Virus record (IMG/VR): IMGVR_UViG_3300017786_000041
Span: 1 to 38,878 of that record
DNA length: 38,878 nt
Reading direction: 5' to 3' (one strand)
Source: a virus
Under the pieces are notes generated by a model. It saw nothing but the letters and a program-made list of their open reading frames with translations, was not told where the DNA came from and did not search any database. The translations under genes were made by a program, and so were the position numbers. Within the stretch, counting starts at the first letter, position 1. Each line of letters opens with the position of its first letter. Shown one piece after another: positions 9,579-38,834 of the stretch.

Positions 9579-12500
9579 TTACGGATGGTATATTGTATAA
9601 GTTATAGGATACGTAGGTTGAACTGTTATACCATTGTTAGTTCCTGGTGTACGAGCATTTGGACTGTTAGGTGGTACTATAGGACCTTGAGCAGCATCAG
9701 TAAGCTCCAAAGTAACTTGCACAGCAGTAGAATTTAAATTATTGTTACCTGGTAAACCACCACCTTGATTTGTAATTTGCGGCATGTCATCTCCTATTTC
9801 TAATATACCTGCAGCATTTGAAAAGTAAGCAGGATTAGCATAACCAGGACTCAACTTAAAGAAATTACCTTCTTGACCCGTGTCTGTTCTCACGCAAGAT
9901 TTTATATTTAATCTTAATCCACTTAACTTTTCTATTTGATCAGTACTTGCAGTTCCGTTTTGAATATCTGCTTGATATATTGCAGTACCTTGAAAACCTG
10001 AACTACCTGTAATAGTTACAGTTTGAGGTGGCTGATTAATAAATGAAGGAGCTATGTTTTGCATCCTCATATTAAATAATGAAATTGGAAAAGCACCTGT
10101 CCAAAAGTTATTACCTGATGTATCTGTAAATGTCAAATTAAAAGTATAACTATTGCTTGTAGGAGAACCAAAGTCATATACCATAGTTCTTTGAACTTGA
10201 ATTTTAAATGTATTAGCATTTGGTTGTACTAAATGAAAGTCACCTAAAACACTATTACCACTACCATCAAGTACATTGACTAAGTTAGCTGTAAAAGCTG
10301 TAGATATTGTACCACCTGAACCATCTGTTAAAAATAGGTTTGTTGTAACATCTATCCTATTAGAAGTTGTTGCAGCCATAGCCTCAGTATGAATATACTG
10401 TATGTTTTGACCTAATACAGTTTGATTATTCAAAGTATCTTTAATACCTGCAGGTACTGCATCTTCTGCAGCTAAATTAAAATCTGTTATTAAACCAGCA
10501 GTTGAACTTTCCCAAAATACATCTATAGCAGACTTAACTGGATTTGTTTCAAACACTGATAGATCTGCCCATGAGTTTTCAATACCTGCTTTACTACCAT
10601 AACTAGGTGTTGCACCTATTTGTTTCTGTGTATTTATTTTAGCTATTAAAGGATTTGACTGTGCATTGTAAAATATATCATGAAAATCATATTGAGTACC
10701 GTTTGGAACATAAGGATGCCAAGGTTGAGGTGAGTCTTGTGTATTACTATCAACTGTTTGACCTGGAAATAACTGACCTTTAGTTTTTGTCCAAGCACCT
10801 AAATCTCTATATGGCTTTACAGAAACAACAGTAAGTGGCTTAGCCGTAGTTTCACCTTGTGAGTTGTGAAAAGGCTGCGTGGCTTCTGCATCTCTATTAT
10901 TTACTCTGTTAAATAATAATGTATTTACACTAAAAGTTTGATCATTATCAGAAGCGTTAGTAAAATCTCTAGGTATTTTATTTATGTTATCACCAAATAA
11001 GTTAAGTAATGATATTTCACTAGTATTTACAAATGAAGGTAATCTATCATTTCTGCTAGCTGCAGATGCAGGATCGTTTTGTTGTTTAACATCCCATACC
11101 AAATCACCAGCTAATGCACCAGGTAGATATACATTGTAATATTCTTGCTCTTGCTGCTTAACAACTATTCTATAACTATACCATCCAAGTGGATTAATCT
11201 CTGAATATAAACCTGGATAATTAGGTCTAGTTGAATCGTTTGGTACTGGTGTTCTTAATGTAAACTCTAACTGTTCACCAAAATATTGTGTAGAAGCAAA
11301 ATTATCTTCACTTTTAAAACTACTATATATTGTAGAGTTCTTTTGAAAACCTAGTTTGTCTGGATCATTTAATACAACATTAGATGATCTACCATACCTG
11401 TCTAGTAACACAATACCTACTTGATAGCTTCTATTTTGTTTTAAACTATGATTAGGTAATTCTCTTGCTGTAATGTTTAAAGGTACACCACTAACTACAT
11501 TATTAGATATTGGCTTATCAACTACATTAATATCATAATTTAAAAGCTCAGGTGAAGTATGCTTATCTAAATAATTAGCGTATACAACTCTATTACTTAT
11601 AACTTCTTGTGTTAAAGCTCTAACAGGTATTTTGTCATGTACCCTTACTAAATCAGCTTCAGGTAAAGCTCTTATTGCTCTACTTGCTAGATAATCATAC
11701 TCATACAAAGTAGAATTATTAGATGCACTAGATATTCTAGCTACGTCTATATCTTCTATTACTCTTACAGCTAACTCATCAGAGTTTTTAACTAATACTT
11801 GTAATTCTTTTATTTTTAAATCGTTTTCAAGATTACCTCCTTTTATAGGTAATTCTATTTGTAGCTTGATTTGATCTACTCTGTTTTCCATAAATGGAAC
11901 TGTACCTATTTTTTTAACTTGATCTTCATCATTATGCATGAAATAACCAAATTGCTCAGGAACAAATGCAGCTTGGCTAAATGGTGCCATAAGCGAATAC
12001 TCATCATCGTCATACTTAAATCTATAGCTAAACTTAGGAAATTTATCTTTTAATAAGTTTATATCACCTTTATATGCTGTATCGTAATCTGGATTTAATC
12101 TTGCTATTTTTATTAGATCAGTACCAGAGTTTATAGCTGCAATACTACTATTAGGACTAGCATTTAAATTAGCTGACAATGTAATTTCAGTATTTGTAAC
12201 GTTTTGTGCTACTGAATCTATAGTATACTTATAAGTTTCTTCATCTTGAAATATTTCTAACTTATCTTTTGCTTTTATATCTCTATTGTTACCTGTTATA
12301 ACATAGTTACCCGGTATGTTGATTACAGCTTGGCCTAAACTAGTTACATTAGTTGATACTCTTGTTACGATGTGAAAAGGTAGGTATTGTTCTGAGTTTG
12401 ATATTAGCGTGCTGTTGAAGCTGTTATCTAGAAACGATATACTATTATATGGAGCGAACTTAGCTACTGAAATATGATCTTCATTAAAGTAGTAAGGATT

Positions 12501-29915: not shown

Positions 29916-30172
29916 AACACAACAACAATATCAAATTCTTTTATGACCTTGTAATTTTCTTTTTCTATTTCTATATTAAAACCAGCTGATCTATCATAAT
30001 ATATCTCATCGCCGGCATATATTTCCTTTACATCAGAGCCAGGTTCTACAACCTTAGCTCTTCTGTATCGAATATCTTCTCTTTGCTTTTCAGATAGAAT
30101 TAATCCACCTTTTGTAGTCGTATCAGTTTCTTTGATAGGATCTATAACTAAAAACTTACCAACCGCTCTCAT
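29912..30172 (-). CDS. groES: Co-chaperonin GroES
   Basis: 86 residues, slightly shorter than the usual 95. The start VGKFLVIDPIKETDTTTKGG and the mobile loop with GGLIL (22-26), equivalent to the GGIVL tripeptide region that binds GroEL, are clear, followed by RAKVVEPG, IYAGDEIYYD and the end YKVIKEFDIVVV. It caps the GroEL ring and closes the folding chamber. It overlaps the groEL stop by four bases (ATGA), so both are co-translated. The gene order groEL then groES is the reverse of the bacterial operon. Confidence 0.9.
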   Translation of the reverse strand: MRAVGKFLVIDPIKETDTTTKGGLILSEKQREDIRYRRAKVVEPGSDVKEIYAGDEIYYDRSAGFNIEIEKENYKVIKEFDIVVVL

Positions 30173-31713
30173 GCTCTTATATTATTAATTACACAGTTAG
30201 TTGATAATATCGTAGTAGCTACTGAAGCCGCGTTAACTAGTGCACTCTTAGTAACTAATAAAGGATCAATAATTCCGGCTTTTACCATATCAACCGTTTT
30301 TCCTGTAACCACGTTTAGTCCTTTACCTTTTTCAAACTTCTCCAACTTCTCAATACCAGCGTTTTTTAATATCAATTCATAAGGCTTACGTATTGCTTGT
30401 AACAATACCTCTTCACCTATTGACATAGGATTAATTTCAAAACTAGCATTTAGTAATGCAACTCCACCCCCTGGCACTATGCCTTCTTTTATCGCGGCTT
30501 TTGTAGCGCAAATAGCATCTTCCACTCTATCTCTTTTCTCTTTTAATTCAACATCTGAATTAGCACCAACCTTTACTACAGCAACTTTAGCTTTTAATTT
30601 AGCTAAACGTTTCTCTAGTCTAACAATAATGTTAGGGTTTTTAGTTTCTTTAATCTGCTTTTCTAACCTATTAATAGTTTCTTCAACCTTTGTATTATTA
30701 GACAAATCAACTTGTAATATTGTTTCCTCGTGATTTGTTATTGTTTTAATACATTGACCTAAGTGTTCTGGCTGGATTATATCCATATCATCACCTAAGT
30801 CTTCATTAATAAGTGTCGCACCTGTAACAGCACATAGATCGGATAATACGTCTTTTTTGCTGATACCATATGTAGGTGCGTCAATAATGTTAACCTTTAT
30901 ATTACCCTTCTTTTTATTCATAGCTAACGCAGAAACTACTTGTTGGTCAACATCTGCAATAATTAGTAAGCTTTTACCGTTTTTAATAACATATTCAAGG
31001 ACGGACTGAATCTTCCTCACGTTGGGTATAACTGACTCTACAATGAGAACCAAAGGATTTTCAAGTTCAGCCGTACCTTTTTCTATGTTGGTAATAAAGT
31101 GGTTGTTCTTTAACGCTTGGTCATATTGAACACCCTCTATTAACTCAACGACAGTTTCTGGTTGCTCATTTGTTTCCATCATAACTATACCAGTCTCGTC
31201 CACTAATCTGAATGCTTCTCCTATGACCTTACCTAATTCTACATCATTGTTAGCTGATATAGAAGCTACTTGGTCTATCTTTCGTCCACTTACCTTTTTA
31301 CTTACTTTGTTTAAATACTTTAATACTTTTTCAACTCCTGCATTTATGCCTTCTCTCATTAATCTAGAATCATCTAAAAGGCTATGTTCTTCTGCTTGTG
31401 ATAGTATTGCTTTAGCTAATACAGTCGCGGTAGTTGTACCATCTCCTGCATCTGCTACTGTTCTTTGAGCTGCTTGCTTAATAAGCGTAGCTCCAATGTT
31501 TTCTAACGGATCTTGTAATGTAATAGCATTAGCTACTGTCACACCGTCTTTTGTTATCTGTGGCATGCCGTTACTATCTTCTAGTATAACACATTGTCCA
31601 CTTGCTCCTAACGTAGAACCAACTGCATTAGTTAGTTTCTCTACGCCAGTTAATACCTGACTCCTAGCTGTTTCGCCAAAAGTCAGGTTTTTAACTAACT
31701 TTAAATCTTGCAT
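30169..31713 (-). CDS. groEL: Phage chaperonin GroEL
   Basis: 514 residues against about 545 for bacterial GroEL; the Gly-Gly-Met tail is absent and the protein ends NNIRA. ATPase elements are intact: TLGASGQCV, D56 in ITKDGVTVA, GDGTTTATVLA at 90-100, D399 in VEDAICATKAA (E. coli D398) and VPGGGVAL. In the apical domain the E. coli stretch LAGGVAVIKVG reads LKAKVAVVKVG, so both hinge glycines near position 374-375 are replaced. The substrate groove differs too (EGVQYDQALKNNHF against EGMQFDRGYLSPYF). An active but specialised phage-encoded folding chamber is likely. Confidence 0.95.
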   Translation of the reverse strand: MQDLKLVKNLTFGETARSQVLTGVEKLTNAVGSTLGASGQCVILEDSNGMPQITKDGVTVANAITLQDPLENIGATLIKQAAQRTVADAGDGTTTATVLAKAILSQAEEHSLLDDSRLMREGINAGVEKVLKYLNKVSKKVSGRKIDQVASISANNDVELGKVIGEAFRLVDETGIVMMETNEQPETVVELIEGVQYDQALKNNHFITNIEKGTAELENPLVLIVESVIPNVRKIQSVLEYVIKNGKSLLIIADVDQQVVSALAMNKKKGNIKVNIIDAPTYGISKKDVLSDLCAVTGATLINEDLGDDMDIIQPEHLGQCIKTITNHEETILQVDLSNNTKVEETINRLEKQIKETKNPNIIVRLEKRLAKLKAKVAVVKVGANSDVELKEKRDRVEDAICATKAAIKEGIVPGGGVALLNASFEINPMSIGEEVLLQAIRKPYELILKNAGIEKLEKFEKGKGLNVVTGKTVDMVKAGIIDPLLVTKSALVNAASVATTILSTNCVINNIRA

Positions 31714-37955: not shown

Positions 37956-37981
37956 GGGGCCGTGGGGTGGGGTGCGCTGGG
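37956..37981 (+). other. G-quadruplex-compatible sequence upstream of promoter
   Basis: Four G-runs at 37956-37959, 37964-37967, 37969-37972 and 37979-37981 with loops of 4, 1 and 6 bases fit the G3+N1-7 rule for an intramolecular quadruplex. This is striking in an AT-rich genome, and the last run is also the first three bases of the conserved promoter block (GGGTATAGCAC). A looser version with a 15-base loop lies at 38437-38466. Confidence 0.5.
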
Positions 37982-38022
37982 TATAGCACTTACATTGCTA
38001 ATACGAGGCCAATAAGATAATA
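37979..38022 (+). promoter_or_regulatory. Putative phage promoter, copy 1 (upstream of 38073 gene)
   Basis: GGGTATAGCAC-TTACATT, then five bases, TACGA, nine bases, GATAATA. The same elements recur with the same internal spacing at 38464-38508, apart from one inserted C. GATAATA could serve as a -10 element, with TTACAT about 19-20 bases upstream as a -35-like element. It ends 50 bases before the ATG. This is a repeat-based inference; the transcription start is unknown. Confidence 0.6.
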
Positions 38023-38072
38023 CTTATATAATTAAAAGCTAATTATTTTAAACTTAAATTAAATATATAACT

Positions 38073-38324
38073 ATGACTAACAAAGCTAACAACATAACTA
38101 CAAAAAGATTTGTAATAAGAAAATCACTAATAGGTACAAATACTATTATCACATTCACTAACAAGAAAAATCAGAAGTGGACATACAATCATGATGAAGT
38201 ATATGAAGCTAACAAAGCAAAGTTTGACTCAATGGCATGCTTCGAGAAATACAAAAACTATACTAATACTAATACAGTACCTGCATTTGCAAGACAATTA
38301 GCAAGCATGGAAGAGGTTAAATAA
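38073..38324 (+). CDS. Small plus-strand gene, unknown (early or regulatory candidate)
   Basis: 83 residues. Starts MTNKANNITTKRFVIRKSLI, with beta-like segments (NTIITFTNKKNQKWTYNHDE) and a C-terminal helical part (NTVPAFARQLASMEEVK). No recognised domain. First gene of the opposite transcription direction, which in phages often means early or replication genes. The bases around its start (ATAACTATGACTAA) are the same as at the next plus-strand gene, so both share a leader as well as the promoter block. A hairpin overlaps the stop codon. Confidence 0.7.
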   Translation: MTNKANNITTKRFVIRKSLIGTNTIITFTNKKNQKWTYNHDEVYEANKAKFDSMACFEKYKNYTNTNTVPAFARQLASMEEVK

Positions 38325-38330
38325 CCTCTT
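38311..38330 (+). terminator. Stem-loop over the stop codon, weak terminator candidate
   Basis: AAGAGGTTA pairs perfectly with TAACCTCTT across a two-base loop, overlapping the TAA stop of the 83-residue gene and followed by TC then AAAC rather than a U-run. Termination is uncertain; it may instead modulate translation stop or stabilise the message. Confidence 0.45.
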
Positions 38331-38340
38331 TCAAACAGCT

Positions 38341-38386
38341 GGACAAATAGGTTCTTATTATAATATTCTTAAGAGCCTAAATGTCC
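38341..38386 (+). other. Long RNA hairpin between the two plus-strand genes
   Basis: A 17-base arm (38341-38357) pairs with 38370-38386: GGACA with TGTCC, a two-by-two internal loop, then TAGG with CCTA, one G-U pair, and TCTTA with TAAGA, around a 12-base loop containing TATAAT-like sequence. No U-run follows. It may be a protein- or processing-recognition structure, attenuator or small RNA 5' structure. Confidence 0.6.
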
Positions 38387-38422
38387 ACCTGAGCGAATAT
38401 TCTAAATTCATGGGTAGCAACA

Positions 38423-38435
38423 GCGCCGAAGGCGC
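38423..38435. repeat. GC-rich palindrome GCGCC-GAA-GGCGC
   Basis: Perfect five-base stem with GAA loop, beside the second G-rich stretch. It occupies the same relative place as the GCGCGG-rich block ahead of the first plus-strand promoter copy, about 30-45 bases upstream of the conserved block. It could be a short terminator stem or a protein site. Confidence 0.45.
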
Positions 38436-38463
38436 AGGGTAGGGTTGTGTGTATAGCGTGGGT

Positions 38464-38508
38464 GGGTATAGCACCTTACATTCCTTTTACGATCACTAAT
38501 AGATAATA
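38464..38508 (+). promoter_or_regulatory. Putative phage promoter, copy 2 (upstream of 38532 gene)
   Basis: GGGTATAGCACC-TTACATT, five bases, TACGA, nine bases, GATAATA: element-for-element the same as copy 1 at 37979-38022, with one extra C. It ends 23 bases before the ATG. The repetition at two separate genes is the evidence; the sequence is unlike the genome background in its GC-rich first part. Confidence 0.65.
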
Positions 38509-38531
38509 TAAATATAATAAAAATAATAACT

Positions 38532-38834
38532 ATGACTAATAACTATTCTTTCTATGTAAGTTTTCCAATTATAAATAAAATGGTTGACTTCAACAATAAA
38601 CATCACTTAAAACTAATTAATTTTATAAAGGAATTAGAAAACCATGATGAGTATACTAAAAGCCAAACAAGCAAAGCTAGAAGATTAATAAAGCAAGCGC
38701 TTGGTGATTCTGGCGAGTGTGGTAAATACCATATTGACCTTACCTTTAGGAAATGTAAATACCCTACTTGGCAAGCAAATGATGAAGATTTAGTAAATAA
38801 TGCTTCATGGTGTAAACCAAGAGAAGTGGTATAA
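38532..38834 (+). CDS. Second small plus-strand gene, unknown
   Basis: 100 residues, starting MTNNYSFYVSFPIINKMVDF. Basic helical middle (HLKLINFIKELENHDEYTKS, KARRLIKQALGDSGECGKYH) and a C-terminal part with C87-C (CGKYHIDLTFRKCKYPTWQA, ASWCKPREVV), including three cysteines. No family recognised. Its leader and promoter-like block duplicate those of the 83-residue gene, although the proteins themselves are not similar beyond the MTN start. The 44 bases after its stop hold no recognisable feature before the window ends. Confidence 0.68.
   Translation: MTNNYSFYVSFPIINKMVDFNNKHHLKLINFIKELENHDEYTKSQTSKARRLIKQALGDSGECGKYHIDLTFRKCKYPTWQANDEDLVNNASWCKPREVV

Follow-up and report, generated by a model that had tools for sequence, protein, structure and literature searches.

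A conserved, putative early-gene promoter motif in a clade of uncultured phages, probably read with a phage sigma factor

Phage sigma factors with promoters of their own are already known. The T4 protein gp55 and the SPO1 protein gp28 are sigma factors that redirect the host core polymerase to promoters whose -10 element is short and A/T-rich. In T4, late promoters lack an upstream element and depend on the sliding clamp. phiEco32 and phage 7-11 combine a sigma-70-family factor with short conserved phage-specific promoters, several of which are upstream of the sigma gene itself; their early genes use host sigma-70 promoters, and the phage promoters serve the middle and late genes (PMC4331800).

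PhoB half-sites are located some 9-10 bp upstream of the -10 element. The pho box has two half-sites in direct repeat, with an 11-bp period, in place of a -35 box (PMC4415409). Bacteroidota primary sigma promoters are of the type TTTG / TAnnTTTG (PMC7366714, PMC6847099), and in the F. johnsoniae -7 element TAnnTTTG, T-12, A-11, T-8, T-7, T-6 and G-5 are near-invariant (PMC6847099). A-rich leaders without a Shine-Dalgarno sequence are typical of this phylum (PMC6847099).

The window is the whole stretch of 38,878 bases analysed here, a 38.9-kb fragment; the long contigs of its relatives measure some 58-72 kb. Its minus strand encodes a terminase, a portal, head proteins and a GroEL (at 30169-31713), and GroES-like genes are found in relatives. 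The cultured phages with a related portal all infect Flavobacteriia: elemo phages (40% identity), Maribacter phage Panino (44%) and Cellulophaga phages (28-33%). The portal of the environmental genome MW202828 is 51% identical. The cultured-phage collection holds no DNA match to the window end. The genes lack Shine-Dalgarno sequences, and their leaders are A-rich. The clade is a large group of uncultured marine podophages that probably infect Bacteroidota.

At the end of the window, two plus-strand genes are each preceded by a copy of the same block. The features are:

37979..37989, + strand: GGGTATAGCAC, an extra repeat private to the window phage, upstream of copy 1
37990..38022, + strand: putative promoter copy 1, conserved core TTACATTGCTAATACGAGGCCAATAAGATAATA, from sequence comparison
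37991-37995 and 38002-38006, + strand: half-sites of copy 1, TACAT and TACGA
38016-38022, + strand: -10-type element of copy 1, GATAATA
38028, + strand: predicted transcription start of copy 1, an A after T, 26 nt from the T of TACGA
38028..38072, + strand: predicted leader of ORF1, 45 nt, A/T-rich, without Shine-Dalgarno sequence
38073..38324, + strand: ORF1, 83 aa, conserved phage protein of unknown function, family FVIRKSLIG..IITFTNKK
38464..38475, + strand: GGGTATAGCACC, an extra repeat private to the window phage, upstream of copy 2
38476..38508, + strand: putative promoter copy 2, conserved core TTACATTCCTTTTACGATCACTAATAGATAATA, from sequence comparison
38488-38492 and 38502-38508, + strand: elements of copy 2, TACGA and GATAATA
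38514, + strand: predicted transcription start of copy 2, an A after T
38514..38531, + strand: predicted leader of ORF2, 18 nt
38532..38834, + strand: ORF2, 100 aa, no family match

Both blocks are where the original prediction had placed them, the first (GGGTATAGCAC-TTACATTGCTAATACGAGGCCAATAAGATAATA) at 37979-38022 and the second (GGGTATAGCACCTTACATTCCTTTTACGATCACTAATAGATAATA) at 38464-38508. It had also correctly located the start codons of both genes within ATAACTATGACTAA, the same 14-nt context. Aligned locally, the two block regions score 37, where 300 shuffles give a mean of 11.0 (sd 2.0, maximum 18). If up to one mismatch is allowed, the string TACGA-N9-GATAATA has exactly two occurrences in the 38,878 bases. 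Dinucleotide shuffles contain 0.24 matches on average, and reached two matches in 1 case out of 100. Motif scans of all 38,878 bases found no third copy of the block.

The conserved core is TTACA(A/G)-N6-AATACGA-N9-GATAATAT, which is narrower than the string first proposed. The anatomy is revised to a -10-type element with an 11-bp direct repeat, and a phage-encoded sigma factor is added as its likely reader. The GGGTATAGCAC part had to be dropped: it is absent from a third copy in contig L003, and from the copies of other phages. Among 2.9 million viral contigs, GGGTATAGCAC-N0-2-TTACAT occurs in a sister contig and in one unrelated-looking contig outside such context, and nowhere else. GGGTATAGCAC and a G-rich stretch are common to the first two copies only, and look like a recent local duplication. 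The window has only two G-rich stretches of the G-quadruplex type, at 37956-37981 and 38437-38466 on the plus strand, each just upstream of one copy; none of 400 copies in sigma-bearing relatives has such a stretch upstream of the motif.

The anatomy was derived from 71 copies, with the T of TACGA counted as position 0. TTACA(A/G) then spans -12 to -7 and AATACGA -2 to 4, followed by nine free positions, GATAATAT at 14-21 and an A/T-rich sequence. The invariance of GATAATA and TACGA is partly built into the search pattern, but that of TTACA, of the AA before TACGA and of the purine further downstream is not. This purine is found at offset 26 in 71/71 copies, mostly after a T, and in 98% of 372 nonredundant copies the base there is A or G; the starts at 38028 and 38514 were placed on this basis. 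The most common distance to the start codon of the downstream gene is exactly 26 (39 cases), and there is another peak at 45-48. Transcription is predicted from these alignments to start at offset 26, 7 nt after GATAAT. With this base as +1, GATAAT is at -12 to -7, the canonical -10 position. Because the start codon is often exactly at offset 26, a class of leaderless mRNAs is implied.

The upstream element is a direct repeat with an 11-bp period. The identity of the half-sites reaches 0.62 at offset 11; for offsets 5-10 and 12-14 the values are 0.20-0.37. The extent to which half-sites match within a copy beyond the lineage background is negligible (0.617 vs 0.606). Conservation also runs some 15 nt past GATAATA (AAATGTAAC).

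It had been forecast that the series would continue beyond the window, with copies ahead of other plus-strand genes, and this was borne out. L003 (IMGVR_UViG_3300017771_000293) is near-identical to the window end, and runs about 440 bases further. The third motif copy is at 10925-10957 of this contig, and the gene behind it shares 71% identity with ORF1. Searching for homologues of ORF1 yielded 65 loci, of which 61 were inspected. In 52 of these homologues, all on other contigs, the match begins 22-82 nt downstream of a GATAATA; a GATATTA or TATAATA variant occupies the equivalent place in most of the remaining ones. The ORF1 family (window 38073-38324; L003 10988-11263) has a confident predicted model (pLDDT 90) that matches none of the solved structures, and ORF1 paralogues sit close together. 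Right after the ORF1 stop, at 38336-38391, there is a long, strong hairpin without a T run. It is perhaps a 3' end or a processing site, which would make ORF1 a single-gene unit.

A scan of 2.9 million viral contigs for the core pattern gave 11 stretches. The window's portal recurs at 53-63% identity in 7 of the 11 first-found contigs, and the other 4 are short fragments of 15-24 kb. Forward and reverse motif counts per contig are 3/0, 0/7, 14/3, 0/10 and 10/0, where a control with the reversed pattern gives 0-1. Relatives have roughly 1-14 copies each, on the early-gene strand. The array lies among small genes, in the block bounded by the divergence point and the replication genes, on the strand opposite to the structural genes. 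This fits the early gene series of the original prediction, with the word early inferred from position and gene content.

By homology search with the sigma protein described below, 80 loci were gathered. The pattern AC(G/A)(A/G)-N9-GATAATA occurs 377 times on the sigma strand of these loci, and 7 times on the other. GATAATA is found upstream of genes 220 times in 694 upstream regions, against 33.8 expected. The -10 element can be switched throughout an array, to GATATTA in L252, L275 and L277, and to TATAATA or TATATTA in L215, L217 and L218. In some lineages TACGA has become TACAA, TACGT or TTAGA while GATAATA is kept. None of 7 cultured or named relatives has the motif, the exact motif is found in 0 of 84,980 prokaryote species genomes, and no description of it was found in the literature searched.

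In one relative, scanning the genes against Pfam and NCBIfam revealed a sigma-70-family protein, and its gene is present in those relatives whose contigs span its region. The protein has about 255 aa, scores 52.4 bits against TIGR02937 (cut-off 42.9), and aligns to RpoD over residues 14-244. Its predicted model (mean pLDDT 71) resembles sigma-70/SigA chains along its length. The gene is found in 13/14 long motif-bearing contigs, as opposed to 0/7 cultured or named relatives; the best tblastn matches in the cultured-phage collection have 24-28% identity. It is on the same strand as the array (+), and downstream of it. In cellular genomes, close relatives come from four metagenome-assembled genomes only, where they are mostly on short, probably mis-binned phage contigs. 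The window and L003 end before the expected position of the gene, so its presence in the window's own phage is extrapolated from relatives.

That the phage sigma itself reads the motif is what we infer. The association is at the level of the clade, and one shared ancestry could be its cause. By partial distance correlation, the whole-region distances of sigma (regions 2 and 4) show no signal with motif variation above the background of a neighbouring gene. In the -10 variants (the TATAATA and GATATTA lineages, with a switch of the -12 base), the residues aligned to E. coli Q437/T440 are unchanged. Phages whose sigma region 4 is closely similar can differ in the upstream element, as would be expected if another protein bound the direct repeat. 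In a comparison of 35 gene families located near sigma, those that co-vary best (an 83-aa early protein, a primase and a DUF3799 protein) rank too close together for any of them to be named as the reader of the repeat. The core resembles the pho box in its 11-bp direct repeat upstream of a -10 element, but the OmpR/PhoB-type DNA-binding domain (PF00486) is absent in 17 contigs, with positive controls.

The motif also differs from what the presumed hosts use. Bacteroidota primary sigma promoters belong to the same presumed host phylum, and the phage leaders are likewise A-rich without Shine-Dalgarno sequences. The phage core is unlike a Bacteroidota promoter, with an E. coli-like -10 (GATAAT) and no TAnnTTTG. 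Its G-12, A-8, A-6 and mostly T-5 conflict with the host's T-12, T-8, T-6 and G-5, and the TAnnTTTG -7 element was not found in the window blocks. Neither block scored as a consensus E. coli-type sigma-70 promoter (TTGACA, TATAAT, 16-18 nt spacer), and there was no excess over shuffles. Together with the strand-bound arrays in relatives, the unlikeness to the host promoter type supports the initial reading of the block as a phage-specific promoter.

Relatives without the sigma or the motif do have TAnnTTTG upstream of their genes: elemoA in 13/18 regions (1.8 expected), Panino in 15/40 (3.5) and MW202828 in 9/24 (1.0). Sigma-bearing loci show no excess (40/694 upstream regions vs 33.1 expected), nor does the structural strand of portal-bearing relatives (9/179 vs 8.3). 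This contrast between motif-less and motif-bearing phages is the strongest sign of a changed promoter code; that the hosts of the clade have another promoter code is a less likely alternative. With TAnnTTTG at chance in sigma-bearing loci, a first round of transcription from host-type promoters, of the phiEco32 type, was not detected there. Upstream of late genes another element was seen, AAGTRAT followed by a TATAA-like sequence (window 32081, - strand, and relatives). It is a candidate late promoter.

The best explanation, with a probability of roughly two in three, is a phage sigma regulon in which an 11-bp direct repeat takes the place of the normal -35 box. Each block would be the phage promoter of its own transcription unit, within a clade-wide array of early-gene promoters. 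Host core RNA polymerase would be loaded with the phage sigma instead of the primary sigma of Bacteroidota, GATAAT would be melted as the -10 element (-12 to -7), and transcription would start 7 nt on, at the purine. The repeat TACAA/TACGA, at about -37 and -26, would stand for the -35 box. Sigma region 4 may make contact with it, but a partner protein that binds in tandem is the likelier candidate, because sigma does not co-vary with the repeat. Array promoters precede the sigma gene, so the circuit should reinforce itself. Some of the mRNAs would have no leader. In support, sequence comparison places the core on the early-gene strand, ahead of early genes, in otherwise divergent phages.

Other readings deserve consideration. 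A host holoenzyme, with a primary or alternative sigma and perhaps an early activator on the 11-bp repeat, might read the block, leaving the phage sigma for late genes. This would be a classical cascade, with host sigma early, the sigma gene in an early operon and phage sigma late; the lack of co-variation between sigma and motif agrees with it, as does the weak late-strand motif AAGTRAT, found in 19/179 regions vs 6.4 expected. We rate it as unlikely, given that the core violates most of the near-invariant host -7 positions (PMC6847099), that sigma-less relatives do employ TAnnTTTG and that the exact motif is missing from the 84,980 species genomes. A point against the sigma regulon is that no host-type promoter that could make the first sigma was found. 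It is quite improbable, if conceivable, that no host-sigma promoter is used at all, and that sigma or the repeat-binding partner enters the cell with the DNA and steers host core polymerase for the first transcripts. If true, this would be a counterpart to the N4 and crAss-like virion RNA polymerases, but with only the specificity factor packaged. The block could also be an operator or a conserved RNA leader element, given its resemblance to a protein-binding site and the conservation beyond GATAATA. There is however one copy per transcription unit, with a fixed -10-like geometry and a purine start signature; where the ATG is at +1 there is no leader RNA that could act, and these intergenic regions show no other type of promoter, all of which makes this very unlikely.

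There is also a likeness to the T7 promoter, where TAATACGA, 9 nt and then a G have the same spacing. Window copy 1 has TAATACGA without a mismatch, and it is frequent in relatives, so a T7-like single-subunit RNA polymerase might read the block, with GATAATA as the start of the transcript. The nine middle positions are variable, however, against a contiguous consensus of ~23 bp in T7-family promoters; the start signature and the leaderless ATGs come 12 nt after the G with which GATAATA begins; and some lineages that keep GATAATA have an altered TACGA. A PF00940 scan for such a polymerase had no match in 16 contigs, although the control genomes were silent too. This candidate was rejected as highly improbable. 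There is next to no chance that the two blocks are a mere recent local duplication in the window phage without wider meaning: despite the extra upstream sequence that they share, other phages contain hundreds of copies of the core, flanked by different sequences. For the core this is a refutation; for the extra upstream part a duplication may hold.

Other polymerases were looked for as well. The multi-subunit type (PF00623) is absent, with controls positive in 14/14. The structural block ends with genes for giant late proteins of 2600-3365 aa (L108 4161-14258, - strand, and counterparts), and one of these proteins carries a Zeta-toxin/AAA_33 domain. An N4- or crAss-like virion polymerase in such a protein was rejected, with no Pfam polymerase match and no DxDGD-type motif in ORFs >800 aa. 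In one relative, visual inspection of the giant protein seemed to show a sigma-like stretch, but this had no Pfam support in three others.

Set beside phiEco32 and 7-11, the clade similarly has a phage sigma and phage-specific promoters that favour one strand and gene block. Here, however, the motif heads an early-type block, no host-type promoters are detectable, and the host phylum, the sigma sequence and the motif are different. The differences from T4 are an upstream element that is long and conserved, and a sigma that comprises regions 2, 3 and 4. In the literature searched, and as far as we found, the clade, the motif, its early placement, the 11-bp repeat and the loss of host-type promoters are new.

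Bacteroidota have an unusual primary sigma and promoter, and outside the crAss-like phages little is known of how their phages control transcription. The motif marks early regions in viral contigs, and comes with many presumably leaderless messages and a testable prediction of the start site. It also raises the question where the first sigma comes from, when no host-type promoter is visible. An orthogonal pair of promoter and sigma for Bacteroidota is on offer. The clade seems to have left the promoter code of its host for one of its own, with the likely sigma at hand.
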